From: Antedon mediterranea
Taxonomy: Eukaryota > Echinodermata > Crinoidea > Comatulida > Antedonidae
Reading direction: 5' to 3'
Length of the DNA: 64,000 bases
Assembly: GCF_964355755.1 (NCBI RefSeq)
Contig: NC_092677.1
Location: 10,996,601 to 11,060,600, forward strand
Positions 1,873 to 30,678 of this stretch are shown piece after piece. Under the pieces are notes generated by a model that worked only from the letters and a program-made list of their open reading frames with translations, made no database searches and was not told the origin of the DNA. Numbering within the stretch: position 1 is the stretch's first letter; every line of letters starts with the position of its first letter. Position numbers and translations under genes: made by a program.

Positions 1873-2179
1873 ATCTACTGTTCGACTTAACTGTGTATTT
1901 ATCTACGGTTGTGATATTTTGTGGTAGCAGTTTGATCTACTGTATTTTGCCATAGATTGGTGGCTGTTTTAGGATCAACTGTACTTTATTGATATTTTGT
2001 GAAAGCGGTACTTACGACACTGTGATATTTTACGGAAGCCGCAGTGCTACGTTTTGTTTAATCGTAAGTACACAAACATTGTTTTAAGAACAGTACATTA
2101 TTTATTTGGAACAGTAGACTTGTGAACGTCTCGGTAACTACGATTAACTAGTAACAAGACCCTCATCCAGATTTAAAAT

Positions 2180-3037
2180 ATGGCTGATAAACAATCAACA
2201 ACAAGATCCGGTAGAGAATACAGCGGTGGCGATGAAGAAACTGATTCGGATGTAGAATCAGTTCAATCAGTACAACCTGAACAACAGGCAGAAGAGTCTG
2301 GACCAACCAGTGGACCGTACCCTACAGGGGCTGACTCATCTTCAAAAGATGTTTTGTTGTTGATGCAGCAGCAAATGCAGCAGCAAATGCAGCAGCAAAT
2401 GCAACAACAGAATCTTATGATGCAGCAGATGATGGAACAACAAGAACGTTTACGCAAAGAAGATATGGAAAAACAAGAACGTTTACGCAAAGAAGATATG
2501 GAAAGACAAGAACGTTTACGTAGGGAAGATATGGAGAAACAGCAAGCGTTAGTAATGGCGTTAATGGATAAGCAAAAGGACAGTGAGGAGAAACGATTAA
2601 AAGACATGATGAGATTGAAGGAAGTTCAGATTGCAAAACTTTCTGATAGTGATGATATTGAAAATTATCTCACTACGTTTGAACGAATTGCTAACACCTA
2701 TGAGTGGCGAAAAGAACACTGGGTAGTAAAACTAATACCTCATTTGACAGGCAAAGCAAGAGCGGCCTATGCATCACTACCAGTGACAGAAAGTAACCAG
2801 TACGACATAGTGAAGAAAGCAATATTACAAAGGTATGACATAACTGAAAAGACATATAGGCAAAGGTTTAGGTCAATTAAAAAGAAAAGTGAAGAAAGTT
2901 ATAGAGAAATGTATGTTAGGTTAAAAGATTTATTTACTAAGTGGGCTAGGCCTGCTGATAAAAGCAAAGATGATTTAGCTGAAATTGTTATTTTAGAGCA
3001 ATTAATAGATATTATGCCCTGCAGAATTAGCAGATAA
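2180..3037 (+). pseudogene. gag: Gag (matrix-capsid part), frame broken near its end
   Basis: The frame gives 285 residues. Residues 1-50 are acidic and Ser/Gln-rich. Residues 60-80 are a Gln/Met tract (QMQQ repeats), and residues 85-115 hold three repeats of the form QERLRKEDME, predicting a long coiled coil. A capsid-like helical region follows (about residues 145-275, including YREMYVRLKDLF and ILEQLIDIMP). The frame ends at 3037 because of an apparent extra C in the CCC run at 3016-3018; the protein-like sequence continues in the next frame from about 3021. Gag would assemble the cytoplasmic particle. Start choice: first ATG after the leader, with a plausible N-terminus. Confidence 0.85.
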
Positions 3038-3512
3038 TTATTTTCAAGCTAGAAAAGGTATCGATTTTGAGAAAAAGTTTCAAAATAGAAAACACGAAAA
3101 TAGAAACCACCAGGAGAAAACAGTGAAAGGCACTCCTGAAGTTGACAGTAAGGGTAATAATAATCCCCCTGATAACTTTCATAAATCACAATCTGACGCT
3201 AGACAACCTCTCGTTTGTAGACGGTGCAAAAAAGTAGGCCACATAGAACGATTTTGTCGAAGTAAGGATGGCTTTTTGTCGACTTAGACAGATACTGTTT
3301 CAAAACCATGTACACCTTACATTTGTAGAGGCCTAGTTGAAGGATGTGATTGTGAAATTTTGATAGACTCTGGATGTGATATGACACTTGTTCATTCTGA
3401 TTTAGTAGCGGCTAAGAAAATTAATCGCGCGGAGCAAGCTAAAATTACATGCAGGTGCGTCCATGACCATGTCAAAGCCTATCCTACTGCATTCGTCAAT
3501 ATTAAGATTTAA
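3021..3512 (+). pseudogene. Gag nucleocapsid and protease N-terminal half, interrupted
   Basis: This is the continuation of gag in another frame. It encodes a basic linker and then a CCHC zinc knuckle at 3216-3257 (C-X2-C-X4-H-X4-C, CRRCKKVGHIERFC). A stop codon follows at 3285-3287. The same frame then continues into the aspartic protease active site, LIDSG, at 3360-3374, and ends at a stop at 3510-3512. The rest of the protease (VILGRDF) lies in the pol frame, so a second one-base shift separates the two halves, at a TTT run near 3507-3510. The stop at 3285 could be the natural gag terminator with readthrough, or damage. Confidence 0.8.
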
Positions 3513-6500
3513 TAACGAAGACCATAATTTGTTGGTTGGCGTTTGCAGCGATTTACCAAGAGATGTAATTCTTGGTAGGGACTTTCCTAAATTTGGAGAC
3601 TTATTAGGGAAGAGGGATAAGAATCATGATAGGCATAGTTTTGTTGCCACTAGAGATCATGCTAGAAAAGAAAAACTAAGAGAGGAAAACGAATTAAAGT
3701 CGGAAAAAGCTTCTGGGGTTATTTCACATCAGTTAGATGATGTGGTTAATTTTCAAGAAGAATTTGGACATTTAGATGGCCAACTACTCAGTAACAACCC
3801 TCCCAAGGAAAAAGTTCATAAAACCAGAAGTGAGAAACGAAAAGTTAGGAAAGAGTTTGCAAAAACAAAGGAAGCTCAATCTAGCCAAGATAGTGAATTA
3901 GACATTTTAGATATTGGCAGAGATAAAATTAAGGATTATCAGGTTAAGGATAGAACTTTAATTTCACTTCGAGAACAGATGTTAGTACAGAAGGATGATG
4001 ACACTATAAAGATAGTCTGTAAGGATGGAATTTTATTTAGGCAGGTTTTCACTAAACACCAGACAGAACCAATAGAGCAATTAGTAGTTCCATACCCTTG
4101 CCGTAATAGTGTATTGAAAGTCTCACATGATATTCCTTTGGCAGGTCATTTAGGTAGGAAAAAGACATTAGATAGGATAAAGCAGAGATTCTTTTGGCCT
4201 GGTATTAGAAAGGATGTGACCGAATATTGTAACACTTGTGAAAATTGTCAGAAAACTTCAAAGTATAAAACTAAATTGAAGGCCCCGATGATTCCTATGC
4301 CAATAATCAGTGAACCATTCCGCCGAATCGCTATGGACATTGTTGGTCCACTAGCACGGAGTAAGACAGGAAATAAATATGTCTTGGTTATATGTGATTA
4401 TGCAACTCGATATCCGGAGGCTATCCCACTGAGAAGTATTGAAGCTCCAAAGATAGCGGATGAGTTGATTAAATTATTTTCCAGGGTAGGGGTACCAACA
4501 GAAATTTTAACCGATCAAGGCTCTAACTTTACCTCTAAGTTGTTGAGTCAAATTTATAAGTTACTTTCAATTAAGGGCTTGACTACTTCTCCCTACCATC
4601 CACAAACCGATGGATTAGTGGAAAGATTTAATGGCACCCTCAAGGCTATGATTAGAAAATTTGTTCAGGATGATCCCCGAGAATGGGATAAATTGCTTCC
4701 GTACCTATTATTTGCTTATAGGGAGGTACCGCAGGAGTCAACTGGGTTCTCTCCATTTGAATTATTGTATGGTTGGAAGGTACGAGGTCCACTTGATATA
4801 ATGAAAGAAATGTGGACAGGCACGGTGACAGGTCCTCAAAGTGTGGTTTCACACGTTGTTAAAATGAGAGATAGGTTAACTTCAATGAAAGATCTAGTCC
4901 AGGAAAACATTGAACTATCCCAAACAAGGCAAAAACAAAAATATGATCAGAAATCTGTTTGTAGAGAATTTAGTCCAGGTGATGAAGTCCTATTACTCTT
5001 ACCATCTAGTAACGATGCATTAGAGGCAAAATGGCAAGGTCCTTACAAGGTTTTAAGGAAACTAGGTCCAGTAAACTATGAGGTGGAAACTAATGATAAA
5101 CGGAAAAAGTCAAAAGTCTACCACATAAATCTTTTAAAACAATTTCATCGTAGAACTATTGAGGTTATGCTGGCTATAAATGATGTAACTGGACAAGACG
5201 AGGGTCAGGATAAGGACATTTCTTGGTCAAATATTTCTAGTTCCAATTTAACCTTAGATTCTGGTGAAGGATTAGATGAATCTCAGCTTTCAGATTTAGC
5301 GGAGGTGTTTTCTGAATTTGACTCAGTGTTACAGGACAAGCCAGGGAAAACTACTGTAATAAAGCATGATATTGAAATGAACCTAGGGGTACACCCAGTT
5401 AGATTAAGAGCTTATCCAATTCCTCAGGCTAAGTTAGGCAAAGTAAAAGAAGAGATAGAATCTATGTTGGAACTTGGGGTAATAGAAGAGTCTCACAGTC
5501 CCTGGTCCTCTCCTTATATCATGGTACCAAAGCCGGACGGTACAGCTCGCTTTTGCGTAAATTACAAAAAAGTGAATAGCTTGAGCAAGTTTGATGCATA
5601 TCCAATGCCTCGAATAGATGAAATAATAGGCAGGGTTGGTCCTGCTAAATTTATAACGAAGTTAGATTTATGTAAAGGTTACTGGCAGGTTCCATTAACT
5701 GAACGGTCAAAACCATATACAGCTTTTTCAACACCAATGGGTTTGTACCAATTTAAGTATTTACCATTTGGCTTGCATGGGGCTCCTGCAACGTTTCAAA
5801 GAATGATGGATCAACTGTTGCGCAAGAAAGAATCTTATGCAGCAGCTTATATGGATGATCTGGTAATATTTAGTCCAGACTGGGAAAGTCATATCCATCA
5901 TCTTAGGGACATTTTTCAGACCCTCAAGCAAGCTAATCTGACAGTCAAACCTGCAAAATGTAGTTTCGCACATAGTAAAGTGCATTATTTAGGGTATGTA
6001 GTTGGAGAGGGAATGATACGTCCTCAAAAGACTAAGGTAGAAGCGGTAGTACAATGGGAAAAACCTAAAACTAAGAAGGATGTTAAATCTTTTCTTGGCC
6101 TGACAGGATACTACCGAAAGTTTATTCCTAATTATGCTGACATTGCAGCACCTCTAACTGATCTGACGGGGAAAAAACATCCAGATAAAATCAAATGGAC
6201 GCCTGAGTGCGAAGATGCACTTGTAAAGTTAAAACAGGCGTTATGTTCAGACCCTGTGTTACGAAACCCAGATTTTAATGCAGAGTTTATACTGCAAACA
6301 GATGCGTCAGATCGAGGGTTAGGTGCAGTACTTAGTCAACTAGGTCCTGATGGTACTAACCATCCAGTATTGTATCTTAGTCGTAAGATGTTCCCAAGGG
6401 AACAGAATTATGCAACTATAGAGAAAGAGTGTTTAGCTATAAAATGGGCTGTCGAAAGTCTGCGATATTATCTACTAGGCAGAAAATTTAAGATAGTTAC

Positions 6501-6660
6501 TGACCATCAACCACTCAAATGGTTGGTTGAAATGAAAGAGACAAACAAAAGACTAACTAGATGGAGTCTTGATTTACAACCTTATTGCTTTACTGTTGTA
6601 CATAGAAGGGGTATTTCTAATGGTAATGCTGACGGATTGTCCCGAAAACCATTAACTTAA
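3463..6660 (+). CDS. pol: Pol polyprotein: protease C-terminus, integrase, RT, RNase H
   Basis: An uninterrupted frame of 1,065 codons. Residues about 25-41 are the end of the protease (VILGRDF). Integrase comes next: a zinc finger with H222/H229 and C259/C262 (CNTCENC), a catalytic triad D292, D351 and E387 (D-X58-D-X35-E), and a GPY/F module around G526-Y528. Reverse transcriptase follows from about residue 630, with LPFGL and the YMDD active site at 796-799. RNase H ends the protein with D947, E989, D1014 and D1057. The first ATG is arbitrary, since pol is expected to be made as a fusion with gag-protease. No chromodomain was recognised. Integrase preceding RT is the odd feature for a Ty3/Gypsy element. 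Confidence 0.95.
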   Translation: MTMSKPILLHSSILRFNNEDHNLLVGVCSDLPRDVILGRDFPKFGDLLGKRDKNHDRHSFVATRDHARKEKLREENELKSEKASGVISHQLDDVVNFQEEFGHLDGQLLSNNPPKEKVHKTRSEKRKVRKEFAKTKEAQSSQDSELDILDIGRDKIKDYQVKDRTLISLREQMLVQKDDDTIKIVCKDGILFRQVFTKHQTEPIEQLVVPYPCRNSVLKVSHDIPLAGHLGRKKTLDRIKQRFFWPGIRKDVTEYCNTCENCQKTSKYKTKLKAPMIPMPIISEPFRRIAMDIVGPLARSKTGNKYVLVICDYATRYPEAIPLRSIEAPKIADELIKLFSRVGVPTEILTDQGSNFTSKLLSQIYKLLSIKGLTTSPYHPQTDGLVERFNGTLKAMIRKFVQDDPREWDKLLPYLLFAYREVPQESTGFSPFELLYGWKVRGPLDIMKEMWTGTVTGPQSVVSHVVKMRDRLTSMKDLVQENIELSQTRQKQKYDQKSVCREFSPGDEVLLLLPSSNDALEAKWQGPYKVLRKLGPVNYEVETNDKRKKSKVYHINLLKQFHRRTIEVMLAINDVTGQDEGQDKDISWSNISSSNLTLDSGEGLDESQLSDLAEVFSEFDSVLQDKPGKTTVIKHDIEMNLGVHPVRLRAYPIPQAKLGKVKEEIESMLELGVIEESHSPWSSPYIMVPKPDGTARFCVNYKKVNSLSKFDAYPMPRIDEIIGRVGPAKFITKLDLCKGYWQVPLTERSKPYTAFSTPMGLYQFKYLPFGLHGAPATFQRMMDQLLRKKESYAAAYMDDLVIFSPDWESHIHHLRDIFQTLKQANLTVKPAKCSFAHSKVHYLGYVVGEGMIRPQKTKVEAVVQWEKPKTKKDVKSFLGLTGYYRKFIPNYADIAAPLTDLTGKKHPDKIKWTPECEDALVKLKQALCSDPVLRNPDFNAEFILQTDASDRGLGAVLSQLGPDGTNHPVLYLSRKMFPREQNYATIEKECLAIKWAVESLRYYLLGRKFKIVTDHQPLKWLVEMKETNKRLTRWSLDLQPYCFTVVHRRGISNGNADGLSRKPLT

Positions 6661-21700: not shown

Positions 21701-24700
21701 GTTAGGGTAATCTGGCTAACCAGTTTATACTAGGAAAAATATGGCAATTTAGATTTTAAAAAATCCATTATTCCTATTGTATATTCACAAAACTACATAC
21801 TCATAAGGTTACCTACCTAAAGGATAAATAGATAAACTTGTATGTAACAATGTGCATTGAGAACACTATTTTAAGATGGAAACACTAGATTTAAAGTAAT
21901 GTATTGTATAATTTTGAATGCAAAATATAAATTGAAATATGATATTGTTTCTATTATTAATACTTTTGTGTGAAAGTCATATTATTTAGGTGAAAAAATG
22001 GGATAAAATTGAGTATAAGAATAGATAGTATACTGTACTGTATCCGAGTACATTGAAGGTGGTCTGGGAGTGAAATTTGGCAACAATTACTGTAGGGTGT
22101 GGAAATAGTATAATGCCACTCTGTAATTTACAGTAGGCTAAATATGATACAATTAATGATAAATTCTACACAATCTAAGGTCGTGTTCGTACGGTGGTTA
22201 AAATAAGCGCTTAATTTCACCCATGCCTCGGGTTATAAATTGAGCGTTGTTCGTACTTGAAATATTTAACCGCTTAAATGCTTAATCGACGAATCACAAA
22301 CCGGAAATTACGTTTTAAGGTCAGTTGTCTTTACAACCTACGACCCCATTTTCGCACGCTAGTTTCGTGTTGTATATTTTTTACTTGCGATCTTTCTTTA
22401 CAATAACAATTACTTGCTACCTTTTACACTGCTTATCCTTGCGACAAACCTTATGCCTCTTAACGCCGATAATCCTGCCGAAATATGCCTTCTCCTGACG
22501 ACCATTATTTTACTCATTGACGAAGAATTTGAGCCCAATGTTACACGACGGAAACACCACCGACCAGCTAGGCCTACTACTAAACGGGGTGTATTCCTAA
22601 ACGGTCTACACCAACAAGGACAGCACCAGCTGACGATCGCTCTCGAAGCGTGTATGGAAGAGCTTCGTAGGAGAAATGACGGGCCTAGGCAGCGAACGTT
22701 TGTCAAAATTTGACACATTGCCTCTATCGGAGATTTATTATCCTCGAAGGCCGAGTATAATTGGATTATCGCTGAAATAACCTGCAAATTTGGTGAACAT
22801 TTTACCTCGAATTTTTTGTAGCCTGAGGCAAAAGTTAATTGGGCCACGCGAACGGAAATCGGGAATAAGCTGGTATTTTCAACCCCTACGAACAGGCCCT
22901 AAGTATAATAATCCCTGGTAAGCATGAGATAATCTTGGATTATACTCAGCCGCTACTGTACTAAGTAGTTACTAGAATGTAAAGTAGTCTACACTACCAA
23001 ACTTTTATGTGACAAATAAATGCGACGTGCCCATATATGGGCAAGATGATGTCATATCACTACCATATTTGGGCATATTACTACCATATTTGGGCATATT
23101 ACTACCATATTTGGGCACATCACACTTTTTTTTGTCGTCAAACAAGTTTGATAGTGTAGACTGAGCTTTAGTCTAGGTTGGGAATCTTGACCAATTGCAA
23201 ATTGCATCCAAATGTAAATTACTAAGAAAATATCATTTGTTTAAATACAATTTTATATCTGAATGCACATTAATACATTCCTACTGTGATTGCAATTCTG
23301 AAGGTGCTTGAAATGAATTCTAGAAAGCGTTGGAGAGATAAACTCCAACAATACTGAATCAGTAACAATTGGTATAGCAAGGCAAAAAGACAGATGGTTT
23401 TAGAGACTGGATGCTGAGACCTTCATCCAGCAGTGGATTTATAATGGCTGATGATGAAATGAATCCTAGGCTCTCAATAATACAATTCTTCTTTAATTGT
23501 GTATTGTGTATCACTACTTTCTTTTATCTCATAGTAATAGTATATCATTTATTCAACATATCATTTTTAATACAGTAAAAACTATACAGAGAAAAACAAA
23601 TCAATTTGTTACCTTTCGAGTCAAAGAAAGTAAGAAGGCATCTGAAAACATCTTAAAGCCAGTGTGAAGTCCATGTGTTTTCCTATAAATCTATAAAACA
23701 TATTTTCAAATTTCACTAACTGATTTGATCTGACAAAAAATGTCCATATATGGATATGATGATGTCATATCACTACCATATTTGGGCATATCACTACCAT
23801 ATTTGGGCATATCACTACCATATTTGGGCACATGACACTTTTTTTTGTCAAACTAGTTTGATAGTGTAGACAGGGATTACCGAGTAGGCACTGAGGGGGC
23901 TGGGGCGGTGCACCACTTATAATTCAAAACCTGTACAAAATTGGCAAATTTGGCATACAGTACAGAAATACCAGGGAATTTCTCTCTTCTCTCAAAGTAA
24001 AAACCAATATTCATTATGAATATTCATATTTAAACTCAGTGATAAAATATGGTAAAGTAATAGTAATAATTATAGAAATCTTACTTTATTATTAATAATT
24101 GTATAATGTGATAAACTATGGTGAGCTGAATATTTTGCGATGACTTTTTCTGCTAAGTTGTCAAGATTTACAGAAGGAAAGTTGAGCAAGTCTTTCTCAA
24201 TTTGCGGATGCAAATCTTGGCGGCATTGCATGCTATCCAACCAATCATCAACATGACCATTAGGACAGTAACATTTCTCATCATATACAGGACCTAGATA
24301 AACAATCAAAAATATTGAAAAACAATAATTGACATACAGTAGAACTCCTTCTTTAGGACACCTCTATTCAGGAGACATCCCTATTAAATAGAGAAACTTT
24401 CCCATTATTCAAATGACTAGTATCCTATACATTATAAACATTTCAAATTAAAATTATCTTCTATCATAAAGAACACTAATTGTTGAATTACAGAGCTTAA
24501 TGTTTACTGTATATAATGGATGTTTTTTTATTCATATTTTCATGCTATTTTAAAAGTTTAAAAAAAAATACTAATGCAATCAACACAGTACAGTATTTAC
24601 AGTGTTTGTAATTCTGAAATTCCAGTGTAAAGGAGACATTCTAGTGTGACTCTTCTAATACATATAGTATAATCTATAATCTCAGTGCCTAACACCTGAA

Positions 24701-26744
24701 ATATTAACCTGAGTGTTTTCATTTTATAGTATACAATATGTATATTTTTGTCTATTTTTCAATTTCTAAAGAGCAGGGATTAGCTAACCCACCTCCACCT
24801 TGTTTCCGTTATTTTATTAATTCACATGTTATTTTGAAAGTTAGTTCTTAACACAATATTATCAGTGATTGTGAAATGCCAGTGCAAGCTACTATTCATT
24901 TTTCTTTTGTAAACAGTGGTAGACGAGGCAGTAAAAATGTAATTGTAATGTACAGTATGTTACAGTATAAATTCCATAAAATACTGCTGTGTAGTTTAAG
25001 TACCAAATTGAAATAGGTCACATAACCAATGACTTGTAATGGAACGCCTTTCAACACACTTGCACAATTGATCCTGCACAATAGTTAAGTGTATTGATTT
25101 TCATTGGGAGGGCTGCAATAAATGTTTTTATACTCAAAGTGCCAGTCCAACTTAAATTTATAGTTTTAAAATTAGAATTTTACAATGTTAATTGTTATGT
25201 AACAAATTGGGATTTTATCAATTATATTTGAAGCATCTTTGCCTCATCTGTTTTTAACCTCTCTCTACTGCCTTGTTTGCAACCAAGCAGAACATTCCAA
25301 ATTTGAATCTTGGTTTGGATACATAGGCTTTTTCTCATTCTTACAGTATCCTTATCTTCATTGTATAATAATTTTGAGTCATTCACTAGACTAGTCAGTT
25401 CTAATAACTATGATAAATTTCACATTTTTATTTTAAATTATTATTTTAAATATATTTACATAGATAACTTGAAGTTAAATAATGGCGTTTTTTTGTTCAA
25501 CTATTATATTTTATTTGTTTAGGGGTCCGATTGAGTTTTTTTAAATTCTAACACAGATCCTAACCAAAACAAAAATAAGAACAAATAAAAGAAACAAAAT
25601 TGTTAATGTTATGTTAAAATATTCTATTAAACTTGTTTATTTTCTTTTTTGGTTGAATAAATATTATGAAAACCAAAAATGCATACTGACCTTTTAGAGT
25701 ATATGGAGATTTGGCCACATGTTTCTCACCAATTTTAACATCAACTTGCATATTTTGATAACTTTCAAACATTCGATATCGTACAAGGAATGACCCATCA
25801 TGTCTGTCGAGCACCTGTAACCAAATACGCCCTCTTCGGTCTTTGGGACCAACTTTTACTGTATACGTATTTTCTCCAGGTGAATCAGTAAAACTTAAAA
25901 AGATTTTTATTAAACAAAAAATTACTACTACTACTGTATCTCCAGTAAGAAGTTATTCTTGTTCTTTCTTTGGATGAAACATGGAAATTGGAAGGCAGTG
26001 ATAGATCTGTCCCAGTAATAACTTAAACTATCTTTTGGACTGTATTTTAAAAAAATGTAGAGGGGCTGGGTGTTTCTGCCACCACTTTAATAATATATAG
26101 ATCTGCCTGTCTACCGAGTGGCATGCTTTTACACAAGTTGACATAAATATACAACTAAACTTACAAATAAAGAGACAAAAAGTAAAGGCAATGTAAGGAT
26201 TTATAATTAATTGTATTGTCCCCCCAAATCATGAAATTAAATTAATAAAATCAGACGTTGAATAGCTCACGTTTTAATTTAACAAAGTAAATAACTTCCG
26301 TAGGAAAAAAAACACAAAAATAATGTTTTCACTTATATTATAAAATGACAAAATAAACATTTAAATTCAACCAAACACACATTAGCTGGCAGCCAATTTG
26401 ACTATTTTTTGTTTTAAAATACAGTGAATAACTATTATGTGACATTAAAATGGCTTATTATAAAAAAATTGAACAAATTATTTTTTCAGGGGGACATTAC
26501 ATTTTAAAATATTTATGAACACTTACTTTTGACCATTTAAATCCACCGCTTGTATAAAGAAATATCGCGCAGGTACAGTAAAATCTGCCTTTAATCCTGG
26601 CCCCCATACAATAGTTTGTTTCGGACAAACAACTCTTTTCTGTTTGTCTTTTACCGATTCTGTTAATGTCACAAGACTGAAAAACATAACACTTGCAAAC
26701 ACTGTCTGAATAAACATTTGTAAACTTGGAATCCTCTGCATCAT
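9686..26744 (-). CDS. POGLUT2/3-like: Protein O-glucosyltransferase 2/3 (KDEL motif-containing), ten exons
   Basis: Spliced product of about 512 residues, a usual length for the family. Coding exons, 5' to 3': 26744-26527, 25893-25691, 24293-24085, 23690-23613, 19157-18985, 18389-18152, 14243-14034, 12186-12097, 11221-11120 and 9703-9686. All have GT-AG borders and matching phases. Residues 1-30 are a signal peptide (hydrophobic [18 protein letters not shown]). Exons 1-2 encode the filamin-like domain ([34 protein letters not shown]). Exons 3-9 are the GT90/CAP10 glycosyltransferase ([42 protein letters not shown]). The last five residues are NRDEL, an ER retrieval signal. Family members transfer glucose to serine in EGF-like repeats of Notch and similar proteins in the ER. 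An upstream in-frame ATG at 26786 is possible, but the one at 26744 gives a better signal peptide. POGLUT2 and POGLUT3 cannot be told apart here. Confidence 0.95.
9761..10340. repeat. 20-bp satellite, 29 units
   Basis: The unit AATGCAACTGATCGCAATTG repeats exactly 29 times over 580 bp. The first 21 units are identical. Variants cluster at the high-coordinate end (near 10200, 10220, 10287 and 10334-10339). It lies in the last intron of the minus-strand POGLUT gene, about 58 bp before the terminal acceptor. The unit has no stop in three frames of the minus strand, which creates long spurious open frames. Confidence 0.97.
10510..10725 (-). mobile_element. tRNA-derived SINE (family A)
   Basis: On the minus strand it starts GTGAGTGGCCAAGCGGTTAA (A-box-like) and has GGTTCTGGTGGTAGAACGAG downstream. 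It ends in a segment with AGGTCCAGTGTA and AGACGAGTAGGGCCTTATCC. Related copies lie at 16.4-16.6 (minus), 46.55-46.80 (plus) and 58.08-58.20 kb (plus). Confidence 0.7.
10945..11085. repeat. MITE with GGTTCCCACTAG terminus
   Basis: It begins AAGCTTGGTTCCCACTAG and ends in the imperfect complement (GAATGGGTACAGAGCTTT). It carries the CAACGCAAGGATG word in both orientations. Same family as the foldback around the LTR element. It sits in the last POGLUT intron. Confidence 0.7.
11386..11547. repeat. MITE-1 copy
   Basis: The right terminus is AGTTTGATAGTGTAGACAGA plus GCTT; the left terminus AAGCTCTGTTTACAC is its approximate complement. Internal words GTGATGTGC, GTCATATCACTACCATATTT and GGGCACATCACA are shared by all copies. 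Confidence 0.8.
11620..11705 (-). repeat. Decayed tRNA-like SINE head
   Basis: The minus strand reads CTGGGTGGTTAACATGCTTG, then about 30 bp later AGTCCTAAGTTTAAGTCC, resembling A- and B-box spacing. It is too short and worn to assign to a family. Confidence 0.35.
11776..11906. repeat. MITE-1 copy
   Basis: The left terminus AGCTCTGTCTACACTATCAA pairs with GGTTTGATAGTGTTACAGAA at the right. The core has GTGATGTGACCAAATATAG and GTCCATATAAGGACAC. Confidence 0.8.
12190..14030. other. POGLUT intron 7 with inverted GGGGTGTCC-type repeats
   Basis: Intron between exons 7 and 8. A short run of CCAACCAACTGACCGA-like words lies at 12490-12545. At 13815-14015 there is a copy of the dispersed TAATAGGGGTGTCC family in both orientations. 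Nothing else is recognisable. Confidence 0.6.
14287..14425. repeat. MITE with GGTTCCCACTAG terminus
   Basis: It starts AAGCTTGGTTCCCACTAG and ends AGTGAGAACCACGATT. The interior matches the copies near 7.75 and 8.3 kb in inverse orientation (GCCTGCGTGAAATCTGCGAT). It lies in POGLUT intron 6. Confidence 0.7.
14430..16410. other. POGLUT intron 6, no recognised element
   Basis: AT-rich intronic sequence. A short GTGTCCGATTAATAAAGGTG stretch near 16210 belongs to the dispersed GTGTCC family. No coding or RNA feature was found. Confidence 0.5.
16420..16590 (-). mobile_element. Partial SINE (family A)
   Basis: It shares TACACTGGACCTAC, TTTTATAGTCCATAGAAGAC and CCACCACCAGAACTAGGAGC with the copy at 10.6 kb, in the same minus orientation. 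The tRNA-like head is not preserved. Confidence 0.6.
16957..17035. repeat. MITE-1 fragment
   Basis: The right half only: CACTACCATATTTGGGCACA through AAGTTTGATAGTGTGGACAG and AGCTTTA. Confidence 0.75.
17930..18045 (-). mobile_element. tRNA-like SINE head with duplicated B-box unit
   Basis: On the minus strand an A-box-like GGCTTGGTGATTAATGTGC is followed by AGGGTTCAATTCTGACC and AGGGTTCAATCCTGACCTAG, so a 23-bp B-box unit is present about 2.5 times, and then GTTATAACTCACGACTCAC. The unit and the following sequence match the large array at 49.15-49.63 kb. It lies in POGLUT intron 6. Confidence 0.65.
18422..18574. repeat. MITE-1 copy, well preserved
   Basis: AAGCTCTGTCTACACTATCA at the left and its complement at 18555-18574 form near-perfect terminal inverted repeats. 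It lies about 30 bp upstream (on the minus strand) of POGLUT exon 6. Confidence 0.85.
18885..18962 (+). mobile_element. LINE 3' end fragment
   Basis: It carries ACTGAACCACTTTGGAAATC, then AAAGTGTATTTCAGAATAAA, ending in AAAT repeats. The same 3' end recurs at 42.64-42.75 kb, so both are probably 5'-truncated copies of one non-LTR element. Confidence 0.55.
19264..19925. repeat. About 163-bp minisatellite, four units
   Basis: Units start near 19266, 19429, 19591 and 19755, each with CTGCTGTGTAATAGAACCAT, GAACACATGATATGAAATTA, and TCTCCCAGGTGTGTTATAAT. It lies in POGLUT intron 4, about 110 bp before exon 5 in genomic order. Confidence 0.9.
19930..22170. other. POGLUT intron 4, mostly unique AT-rich DNA
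   Basis: At 20300-20520 there is a diverged inverted cluster of the CCTGAATAGGGG family. At 21140-21240 there is a fragment of the foldback element also seen at 37.7 and 45.5 kb (ATACAAATAATGAATATTTA, AATGGTACAAATAAT). No exon was seen. Confidence 0.5.
22179..22899. mobile_element. Harbinger-like nonautonomous element
   Basis: A 721-bp block of higher GC than its surroundings. It starts GGTCGTGTTCGTACGG and ends CCTACGAACAGGCCC, imperfect terminal inverted repeats, and is flanked by TAA at 22176-22178 and 22900-22902. A 3-bp TAA duplication is typical of PIF/Harbinger transposons. It has open frames of 99 codons (plus, 22414-22713) and 145 codons (minus, 22410-22847) that I do not recognise; they may be remnants or chance frames. 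It lies in POGLUT intron 4. Confidence 0.6.
22983..23169. repeat. MITE-1 copy with expanded core
   Basis: TAGTCTACACTACCAAAC at the left, AAGTTTGATAGTGTAGACTG at the right. The core word CTACCATATTTGGGCATATT is present three times. Confidence 0.8.
23721..23875. repeat. MITE-1 copy, left end worn
   Basis: The right terminus is TAGTTTGATAGTGTAGACAG; the core CACTACCATATTTGGGCATA is present three times. The left terminus is reduced to TTTGATCTGACAAAAAATG. It lies just upstream (minus strand) of POGLUT exon 4. Confidence 0.75.
24335..25680. other. POGLUT intron 2
   Basis: A worn copy of the ACAGTAGAACTCC-ended family lies at 24337-24400 (GGACACCTCTATTCAGGAGA). The rest is AT-rich with no exon or RNA gene seen. 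Confidence 0.5.
26208..26500. repeat. MITE-2 copy (GTATTGTCCCC family)
   Basis: It begins TTGTATTGTCCCCCCAAATC and ends TCAGGGGGACATTACATTTT, imperfect inverted termini. The interior ACTTCCGTAGGAAAAA and TATGTGACATTAAAATGGC are shared with the copy at 47.16-47.48 kb. It lies in POGLUT intron 1, directly downstream of exon 1. Confidence 0.7.
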
Positions 26745-28134: not shown

Positions 28135-30678
28135 TTAATGAGGCTTCTGTACAAATCGCAAACCACAATAACCACATGAATGAGGTCCTTCAGGGTCCTG
28201 TAAAAGAAAGAGAAAAATTTGTCTTCAATACAAACATAATCATTCAGATTTAGTATGGGAGTAATTTCCATGTAGTTTACCATGAAGATTTGTATACAAG
28301 TTGCAATTTTTCAAATTATTTTATTTGTATTGTTTTATTCTACACTCAGAAGTTGCAGTGACACCTGTTTTTGGTTCCAGAGCGGTGGCTGGAACCAGCG
28401 GTGCATGCAGGCCCAAACGGTTGACTGCAGGCAGTTCTTACTGTAGGTCGTGTTTTCAGCCCCAAGTAGTCCATGCAGCTCTTGAGTGTTTTCTGCCCCT
28501 GGATAATGCATGCAGCCACTGACCTGGTGTTGCCTACGATTATTGCCTGTCCTGCTGATATGACTTATCCCTTTCAATGCCTGCAGCACCTGATATTTCA
28601 TCTGCCACCCTGACCCAATAAATAGAACCCTTAAGTTGCCTAGTATACTTACCAGGTTAATGAATACTTTAGATGGAACCCTTAAGTTACCTAGTATACT
28701 TACCAGGTTAATGAATACTTTAGATGGAACCCTTAAGTTACCTAGTATACTTACCAGGTTAATGAATACTTTAGATGGAACCCTTAAGTTACCTAGTATA
28801 CTTACCAGGTTAATGAATACTTTAGATGGAACACTTAAGTTACCTAGTATACTTACCAGGTTAATGAATACTTTAGATGGAACCCTTAAGTTACCTAGTA
28901 TACTTACCAGGTTAATGAATACTTTAGATGGAACCCTTAAGTTACCTAGTATACTTACCAGGTTAATGAATACTTTAGATGGAACCCTTAAGTTACCTAG
29001 TATACTTACCAGGTTAATGAATACTTTAGGATGCCCTAGTGGTCCTCCACCGCCATTACAGTAAACGTTTCTGCCATCTATCTCAGTCGGTTCAACTTCA
29101 GCTATCATGTCTATTGCAAAATTTTCGTTCACCTATGTATAAAAGAGTCCTTAGCTATTGAAAAGTGATAATTAAAATAAGACAAATAAACTTTAAATAA
29201 ACATATTTAATTTTGTATTTAATATTATATTATTAATTTTAAATAATTAAAAAAAAATGTTAAATGTTATTTTACCATTTTTTCTCTGCCAACAAATCTT
29301 GCTCGTCTAACATCAGATTCTTCAAATGACTGAAAAACGAATGATTTAATAATATTAATAAATTAAATTATTAAAATAATAATTAGGCTCTATATAGGCC
29401 TATGTTTATTGTTTTAACTTTTATTATATAAATTAAAATTAAATTCCTGATCTCCTCACTCAATTAATTAACGATTTTCACATTCGTGTGAGGACCAATC
29501 ACAACAAACAAAGTGGACATCTGTTTTCTAATCCCTCCCCTCCCTAATCCCTCCTCTACTACCTAGGCCTAGGCTAGACTACTCTAGGCCTAACTAGGTT
29601 AGTTAGGCCGAGACTAGCTAGGCCAGACAGAGAGAGTAGTCTAGACCTAGCCGGTTGCAGGTCAAGTCGGCCCCAAACCGTCTCGGCCAAAGTCAAGTCG
29701 GCCCCACGTCAAGTCGGCCCCAAGTCAACTCGGCCTCAAGTCAACTCGGCCTCACGTCAACTCGGCCAAAAACTAATCGGTCAACTCGGCCACAATAAAG
29801 TATGGAACGCAAAAAGTGCTTAATATTATTACGATTCTTACTATCCACGTTTTAAAAAAAATGAAGAAATAAAAAATATAATATCATATAAAAAAATGAA
29901 CTCATTGCCGATATGAATAGATTAGAAGTACCCGCGTGTTACAAAAAACACGTGCAGGTACCGTATTTTAGGAAATCGAAGACGGAGGCCTACGTTCCAC
30001 ATTTACTCCATGGTTCCACCATTTGGCCATAGAAAAAATGATCGTACATCGTTTTTGTGCATGATTTGCGTTTAAAAAAAAGGGGAATCCCCCGGTCAGC
30101 GAAAACACGTAGCAGTTGTAGATATCGAAAAAGCTGGCAAACGCATAGCTACGAAATTTTATTAAACGTAAATAAAGGAAAGTTGGTGAAATCATTCCTA
30201 TTTTTTTTGCTAAATATATTATTGTCTAAATAATAATATTCATTAAAAGTCAGAATTATTCATAGTTAAAAAATTGTGAAGAAATATTATTTTATCAATC
30301 CCCTTTATTTGCACTTTTTGCGTTCCATACTTTAATGGGCCGAGTTGACCGATTATTTTTTGGCCGAGTTGACGTGAGGCCGAGTTGACTTGAGGCCGAG
30401 TTGACTTGCGGCCGAGTTGACTTGGGGCCGACTTGACTTTGGCCGAGACGGTTTAGGGCCGACTTGGATCGAAACCGACCTAGCCCTAGCCTAGGCCTAG
30501 ACTTAAGTTTAAATTCTATATTAAGGTTATTTCATACCTGACCGGTGTGTGTAACTTTTTCTTCAGTAGCATATTGTCTTATACCACAGCTCAGCTTTGG
30601 TAATTGCTGAAAACGAGCAAGATTCCATTCAATTCCTGCTCGCGAAAGTAAAAGATTTGTTCTACGAAGAGCTGCCAT
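28135..30678 (-). CDS. NDUFS6: NADH dehydrogenase iron-sulfur protein 6, mitochondrial (complex I)
   Basis: Four coding exons on the minus strand: 30678-30538, 29329-29276, 29132-29010 and 28197-28135, all joining in phase 0 with GT-AG borders. The product is 126 residues, close to the usual size. Residues 1-40 form a basic, hydroxyl-rich mitochondrial presequence ([15 protein letters not shown]). The conserved core follows: [45 protein letters not shown], then [10 protein letters not shown]. Zinc ligands expected from the family are C90, H99, C114 and C117. It is a peripheral-arm subunit of complex I needed for late assembly. Oddly, the exon 3 donor is repeated eight times downstream in a 51-bp in-frame array, so extra 17-residue blocks could be added between residues 106 and 107. 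The gene is head to head with MRPL36. Confidence 0.95.
28625..29029 (-). repeat. 51-bp tandem array duplicating the NDUFS6 exon 3 donor
   Basis: Eight copies of a 51-bp unit span the exon 3/intron 3 border. Each has the last six codons of exon 3 (KVFINL) followed by GTAAGTATACTAGG. The eight possible last exon bases are 29010, 28959, 28908, 28857, 28806, 28755, 28704 and 28653. The unit is 17 codons long and has no stop, so each donor joins exon 4 in the same phase. Units are nearly identical; one base differs near 28831, and the copy most distant from the exon differs near 28638. Confidence 0.95.
29640..30490. mobile_element. Foldback element in NDUFS6 intron 1
   Basis: Inverted arms of about 170 bp face each other at 29655-29820 and 30318-30475. 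Each arm is itself a run of AAGTCAACTCGGCC-type words and ends inward at CATACTTTA/TAAAGTATG and GCGTTCC. The interior of about 500 bp is AT-rich with no recognised gene. The exact ends and target duplication are unclear; outer similarity continues to CTAGCCGGTT and its complement. Confidence 0.8.

Follow-up and report, generated by a model that had tools for sequence, protein, structure and literature searches.

The minisatellite of the human gene IFI6 (6-16, G1P3) is built of 12-bp units that keep the reading frame. Turri, Cuin and Porter reportedly found in 1995 that this minisatellite gives multiple splice donor sites. As excerpted, PMC4526556 states that two downstream repeat units of IFI6 serve as donors, leading to three mRNAs, and that the 130-aa form is predominant. 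Minisatellite expansion at exon-intron boundaries, altering exon and intron extent, is also described for human paralogues in a passage of PMC2812944. In mammalian systems, according to the relevant section of PMC5585400, when two donors compete SRSF1 promotes use of the intron-proximal (downstream) one, and hnRNP A1 use of the distal one.

Here we describe an array of splice donors at the end of exon 3 of NDUFS6 in the feather star Antedon mediterranea. The gene lies in the window (the whole stretch of 64,000 nucleotides that was analysed), and its features are as follows.

30538..30678, minus strand: NDUFS6 exon 1, coding part, 47 codons
29276..29329, minus strand: NDUFS6 exon 2, 18 codons
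29010..29132, minus strand: NDUFS6 exon 3 up to the first donor, 41 codons, phase 0, with zinc ligands C90 and H99
28620..29027, minus strand: array of eight 51-bp units, straddling the NDUFS6 exon 3/intron 3 border
28653, minus strand: last base ahead of the eighth (final) array donor
28198..28619, minus strand: rest of NDUFS6 intron 3, holding an in-frame donor-like site after 28524
28135..28197, minus strand: NDUFS6 exon 4, with C114, C117 and the stop, phase 0

The four coding exons, all of phase 0, give a protein of 126 aa when the first donor is used, and in the protein search this spliced product was identical at 126/126 residues to P0001, which is annotated as NADH dehydrogenase iron-sulfur protein 6, mitochondrial-like, of Antedon mediterranea. 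The first-donor form matches zf-CHCC (PF10276) with 65.6 bits (cut-off 27 bits), can be aligned to solved NDUFS6 chains and contains the zinc site C-x8-H-x14/15-C-x2-C (C90, H99, C114 and C117). The sequence-only reading, made earlier from the letters of this DNA, had named the gene correctly. NDUFS6 is single-copy, with four genome matches at E<=0.001 (354,431,138 bases, 18 contigs) that correspond to its four exons; because the genome has one set of these exons, the NDUFS6 product must derive from this locus. A processed NDUFS6 retrocopy, which might have revealed the donor used, was sought, and none was present in the genome at E<=0.001. The stretch 28300-28620, in the rest of intron 3, had no genome match except itself. 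One homologue fragment (P0119) ends in GHPKVYINLVK, as though translated into an intron at the same L/D position (slashes mark exon borders here and below), hinting that the intron at this position may be old.

For the array itself, TRF gave a period of 51 with 7.9 copies and 99% match (28625-29029), and the unit-by-unit register runs from 29027-28977 in 51-bp steps to 28670-28620. Each unit is composed of the 18 nt of the exon 3 end (KVFINL codons) and 33 nt of the intron start, and the donor CTG/GTAAGT is found in 8/8 units. Units 1, 2, 3, 5, 6 and 7 are identical, unit 4 carries a single change, which turns R into S in the open frame, and unit 8 carries three; that seven of the eight units differ by one base in total suggests a young array or homogenisation. 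Within the window, CTGGTAAGT is confined to the array, with eight minus-strand occurrences and none on the plus strand, and the 32-base core of the array has eight exact genome matches, all in the NDUFS6 array. The sequence-only reading had put forward the eightfold 51-bp unit over the exon border, the KVFINL codons and GTAAGT donor in every unit, and donors whose last exon bases are 29010, 28959, 28908, 28857, 28806, 28755, 28704 and 28653, all of which hold. It had overlooked a second, weaker donor TAG/GTAACT 13 nt downstream in each of units 1-7, whose use leads to a frameshift, the additional in-frame donor-like site CAG/GTCAGT after 28524, and the arrays elsewhere in the genome.

At the array junctions, the units join TTCCATCT to AAAGTATT; the outer edge is TTCTATTTATTGG and the inner edge CATCCTAAAG, and such edges would suit a simple tandem duplication that used very short homology, with the copy number changing afterwards. 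Minisatellites are common in the Antedon mediterranea genome. A 200-kb sample, made up of 20 stretches of 10 kb taken at round positions of C1-C8, contains 18 arrays with a period >=15, >=3 copies and >=80% match, and the 64-kb window contains 13; for a period of 30-150, >=5 copies and >=90% match, the numbers are two and one, respectively. Chance is far from accounting for the NDUFS6 repeat. Read on its opposite strand, the array (window 28594-29064, plus strand) is open too, with 156 codons and a 17-residue repeat, which shows how easily a 51-bp repeat comes to hold an open frame.

The likeness to IFI6, as far as the excerpted account goes, lies in the donor being carried within minisatellite units. 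The NDUFS6 array has a consensus donor in 8/8 units, its first unit at a real coding-exon end and its later donors in frame in 7/7 cases; anatomically it appears to be an IFI6-type splice-donor minisatellite, and IFI6 is the closest precedent. However, the NDUFS6 units are 51 bp long and cross the border, taking in 18 nt of exon, whereas those of IFI6 are 12 bp, and multi-donor use is reported for IFI6 in that excerpt, whereas NDUFS6 is known here from genomic sequence alone. The human paralogues share with NDUFS6 a tandem repeat at an exon-intron boundary, but they lie in segmental duplications and have transcript support, unlike this single-copy gene read from genomic DNA (PMC2812944). Competing adjacent donors of one intron, as in NDUFS6, are also described for DOK7 intron 4 in the section cited above, where there are two unequal sites 11 nt apart rather than eight identical ones 51 nt apart (PMC5585400). 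No report of donor arrays in crinoids was found in the titles and abstracts of the literature searched, which left most subscription papers outside. What is new here is the recurrence of donor arrays at coding-exon ends in this genome.

These other arrays were picked up through exact donor patterns and are therefore no random draw. With three GGTAAGT spaced 30-60 bp apart there were 1409 matches vs 2518 in the reversed control, with six arrays on C1 among the matches listed (about the first 100). Three CAGGTAAGT gave 82 matches vs 19 and seven arrays, two of them already among the six on C1, three AAGGTAAGT gave 82 matches vs 1381 and five arrays, four of which were examined, and three TGGTAAGT gave 802 matches vs 505, of which about the first 100 places were listed. 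The counts are of overlapping matches, mostly from long arrays, and with two patterns above and two below the reversed control no conclusion is drawn on a genome-wide excess of donor arrays. Besides NDUFS6, 15 arrays were examined (four judged from at most 0.65 kb), and three arrays, C4:30494187, C2:40850135 (57 bp) and C3:1667842, lie outside the 15. Exons were picked by eye from open frames and then put to homology tests, a procedure that untranslated or unfamiliar exons would escape. Four of the 15 arrays, a fraction that gives no general rate, start at a coding-exon end.

G000:C1:17773800-17780000: DHX8 array, unit 37 bp with 28-29 nt of exon, 22 donor-like sites
G000:C1:18593400-18597600: eIF3L array, unit 29 bp, only 3 nt common to the exon
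G000:C9:47100-50600: ABCC-type transporter array, unit 58 bp, spacings of 72 and 116 too, straddling the exon end
G000:C4:35200100-35203600: array of a C4 gene, unit 55 bp, at the end of the probable coding exon MDSFDVAVEYWENAIDSAPNPPQ

In DHX8, 42/42 residues of the exon ahead of the array align with a solved DHX8 chain (query cut at the donor), the first donor joined to the exon right behind the array gives LTEPPG-DILMFLTGQEEID, and only the first donor reaches the next exon stop-free, the later ones leading to a stop in 21/21 cases. In eIF3L, solved eIF3L chains can be aligned to 20/20 of the residues ahead of the donor (query cut at the donor), Paf67 is matched in the exons before the array (profile 251-310) and, below cut-off, after it (336-372), and later donors in the portion of the array covered lead to a shift or stop (3/3). 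The ABCC-type transporter was identified with E 1.6e-5 over 54 residues, the last of them intron-coded, and later donors lead to a stop in 5/5. The exon of the C4 gene was judged by acceptor, open frame and donor alone, and a Pfam profile search of this gene gave no match; its later donors lead to a stop in 5/5 as well, and we presume it to be mitoguardin-like. In these four genes together, 34/34 later donors tested lead to a stop or frameshift. Of the five arrays, NDUFS6 alone has an open in-frame unit, against about 0.19 expected per array; the other four units are all non-multiples of three, which has a chance of 0.2 at random, five arrays being a small sample. NDUFS6, DHX8 and eIF3L are expected to be essential, and DHX8 encodes a splicing helicase. 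Directly upstream of the array in the C4 gene lies another, separate repeat, with a period of about 70 bp and open frames every 70 nt.

The eight NDUFS6 array donors are identical in their pairing with the U1 5' end (-11.0 kcal/mol) and stronger than the donors of exon 1 (-7.2 kcal/mol) and exon 2 (-5.3 kcal/mol), and the weaker donor that units 1-7 have 13 nt further downstream reaches -6.4. Since U1 pairing is the same across all eight, donor strength gives no edge to the first donor. Each donor is also enclosed in a short hairpin.

28995..29014, minus strand: first of eight 20-nt hairpins enclosing the donor, ACCUGGUA-AGUA-UACUAGGU

The hairpin has a stem of 8 bp in units 1-7 and 7 bp in unit 8, with -8.4 kcal/mol (unit 8, -7.8), and -8.4 kcal/mol was attained in 10/20000 random-flank controls. 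Folding in wider context is ordinary: z is -0.78 for 51 nt, -0.14 for 101 nt and 0.12 for the 86 nt surrounding unit 8, whose best fold is a different one. In accessibility, donors 1 and 2 are most open at window/span 150/100 and 200/150, donor 5 at 80/60 and donors 2-5 at 400/300, and donor 1 no longer leads in a transcript starting at exon 3. The hairpin and accessibility were set aside as donor selectors, because wider folding is ordinary and the accessibility ranking varies with the window.

The best explanation, to which we assign a probability of roughly 0.7 as a whole, is that a 51-bp stretch, with 18 nt from the end of exon 3 and 33 nt from the start of intron 3, underwent tandem duplication in this feather-star lineage and then expanded to eight copies. 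The spliceosome would mainly take the exon-defining first donor at 29010, so that the usual complex I subunit of 126 aa is made. The other seven donors would mostly be ignored, as later donors must be at the other exon-end arrays, provided those genes are functional. Since the unit happens to be open and its length divisible by three, a transcript spliced now and then at donor 2 or beyond would keep its reading frame unharmed. The anatomy of the array, the single copy of the gene and the presence of further arrays, with frames that would disrupt the product, at other exon ends are direct observations. In the DHX8, eIF3L, ABCC-type and C4 genes, the first donor must supply the mRNA if these genes work, since later donors lead to stops or shifts; later-donor transcripts could be made there and then degraded. 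We infer the dominance of donor 1 in NDUFS6, a recent origin of the array and low leakage. The extra copies in NDUFS6 are probably silent, with the first donor dominant, and the array is probably a recurrent feature whose open frame in NDUFS6 is an accident, as one in five arrays is in frame, at the chance rate of about 0.19. However, the SRSF1 preference for the downstream site, beside that of hnRNP A1 for the distal one, and the identical U1 pairing count against first-donor dominance. The sequence-only reading had offered three options, of which a duplication tolerated because the first donor wins and a neutral expansion both fit the destructive frames of the other arrays, and an isoform generator has gained no positive evidence. 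A wider proposal, that the 5'-most donor beats up to about 20 near-identical donors 29-58 nt downstream and that straddling minisatellites are near neutral and recur at housekeeping exon ends, is put forward tentatively, and we are somewhat doubtful of it.

An isoform generator would use the donors to a comparable extent and produce an NDUFS6 ladder with 0 to 7 blocks of 17 residues, copy-number polymorphic, which we consider unlikely. The eight donors are identical and strong, as such a generator would have them, and every later donor is in frame: donors 2 to 8 lead to 143, 160 ... 245 aa with no stop and 17 more residues per unit (7/7 later donors), as had been expected from 17 stop-free codons per unit and the phase 0 of exon 4. 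The 245-aa form still matches zf-CHCC in two stretches with 58.3 bits, above the 27-bit cut-off, and human IFI6, as excerpted, uses several donors of a comparable minisatellite (PMC4526556). However, the open in-frame property is not beyond chance, unlike the repeat itself: a phase-0 GTAAGT unit composed like this one has a chance of 0.556 x 1/3 = 0.185 of being open and a multiple of three.

The homologues also speak against such a ladder. The inserted blocks would follow L106, inside the zinc site between H99 and C114 where they had been placed before, and directly after strand 102-105 of the predicted 126-aa model (pLDDT 78.8). Among 158 NDUFS6 homologues, H-to-C spacing is 14 in 137, 15 in 16 and, anchored by eye, 14 in three more, giving 14 or 15 in 156/158, and the remaining two end before the cysteines; longer forms would fail this usual spacing, with 31 to 133 vs 14-15. 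L/D stands at the junction in 152/158 homologues, and none of the 156 comparable ones (of 158) has an insertion at this point. In two protein searches, the only Antedon NDUFS6 among the 120 matches listed of 130 and the 120 listed of 257 was the 126-aa form, and no longer Antedon form was among the 120 listed of 257 (160-aa query, length window 88 to 280 residues). This 126-aa-only record is a weak pointer, its gene model being possibly homology-guided. A repeat-protein fold for the array-coded blocks was also considered, and the low-confidence single-sequence model of exon 3 with the array folded alone (mean pLDDT 45.8) says neither yes nor no.

Preference for the last, intron-proximal donor, with a main product of 245 aa carrying seven blocks, would accord with the action of SRSF1 on such sites, as given in the section already cited (PMC5585400), and with a frame open all through the array. 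Against it, H-C spacing is conserved, and reading into the DHX8, ABCC-type, C4-gene and eIF3L arrays leads to stops or shifts; because these four arrays do so, an intron-proximal rule is not general in this genome, if those genes work, and we regard this preference as improbable for NDUFS6. It is just as improbable that the extra donors are uncut downstream U1-binding sites that strengthen exon 3 definition with mild benefit. Strong U1 complementarity every 51 nt would suit such a role, as would the two donor-triplet patterns that exceed their reversed controls (CAGGTAAGT and TGGTAAGT), but the other two (GGTAAGT and AAGGTAAGT) fall below theirs, and all four counts, being of overlapping matches from long arrays, are weak evidence. 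An assembly artefact, with the copy number or the entire array wrong, is the least probable, as distinct changes in units 4 and 8 speak against blind copying and similar arrays stand at several other loci of the assembly.

Choice among identical competing donors has usually been studied with engineered minigenes. The arrays described here lie at real exon ends with varied units and frames, so that donor choice could be read directly by RNA-seq in a normal animal. Exclusive use of donor 1 in NDUFS6 would mean that an exon border can undergo many duplications without visible cost, and any leakage would yield a length-polymorphic complex I subunit. If the 5'-most donor does prevail in general, the genome offers a set of natural experiments on competition among many donors, with NDUFS6 as the only array found whose leakage would be visible as an in-frame ladder of proteins.

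Several further arrays and neighbouring features were observed. A 20-bp GGTAAGT array (G000:C1:7684600-7687400) begins 48 nt into an intron, downstream of an exon-like stretch, picked by eye, that has its own donor GTAAGA. A 31-bp array (G000:C1:40902567-40903660) contains at least 36 GGTAAGT, with CAG/GTAAGTAT in its units; no coding exon is recognisable upstream of it, and the upstream exon is possibly untranslated. The same 53-bp CAGGTAAGT array is found twice, 22 kb apart and with similar upstream flanks (G000:C6:30480007-30481557 and 30503553-30504409), and the 57-bp donor array at G000:C2:40850135-40850655 (ATG/GTAAGT) has a unit that is a multiple of three.

Within the window, NDUFS6 intron 1 contains an inverted repeat (29652-30477) with 140-nt arms that are 93% complementary and 546 nt apart; the arms consist of a 16-bp minisatellite, and the whole looks like a foldback element. 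The downstream same-strand neighbour of NDUFS6 (about 24070-26740, minus strand) presumably encodes a POGLUT2/3-type (KDEL-containing) protein. At 2177-6660 on the plus strand, LTR-retroelement-like open reading frames have integrase domains before reverse transcriptase and RNase H, which we take to be the reverse of the usual Ty3 order, as in Gmr1-type elements.
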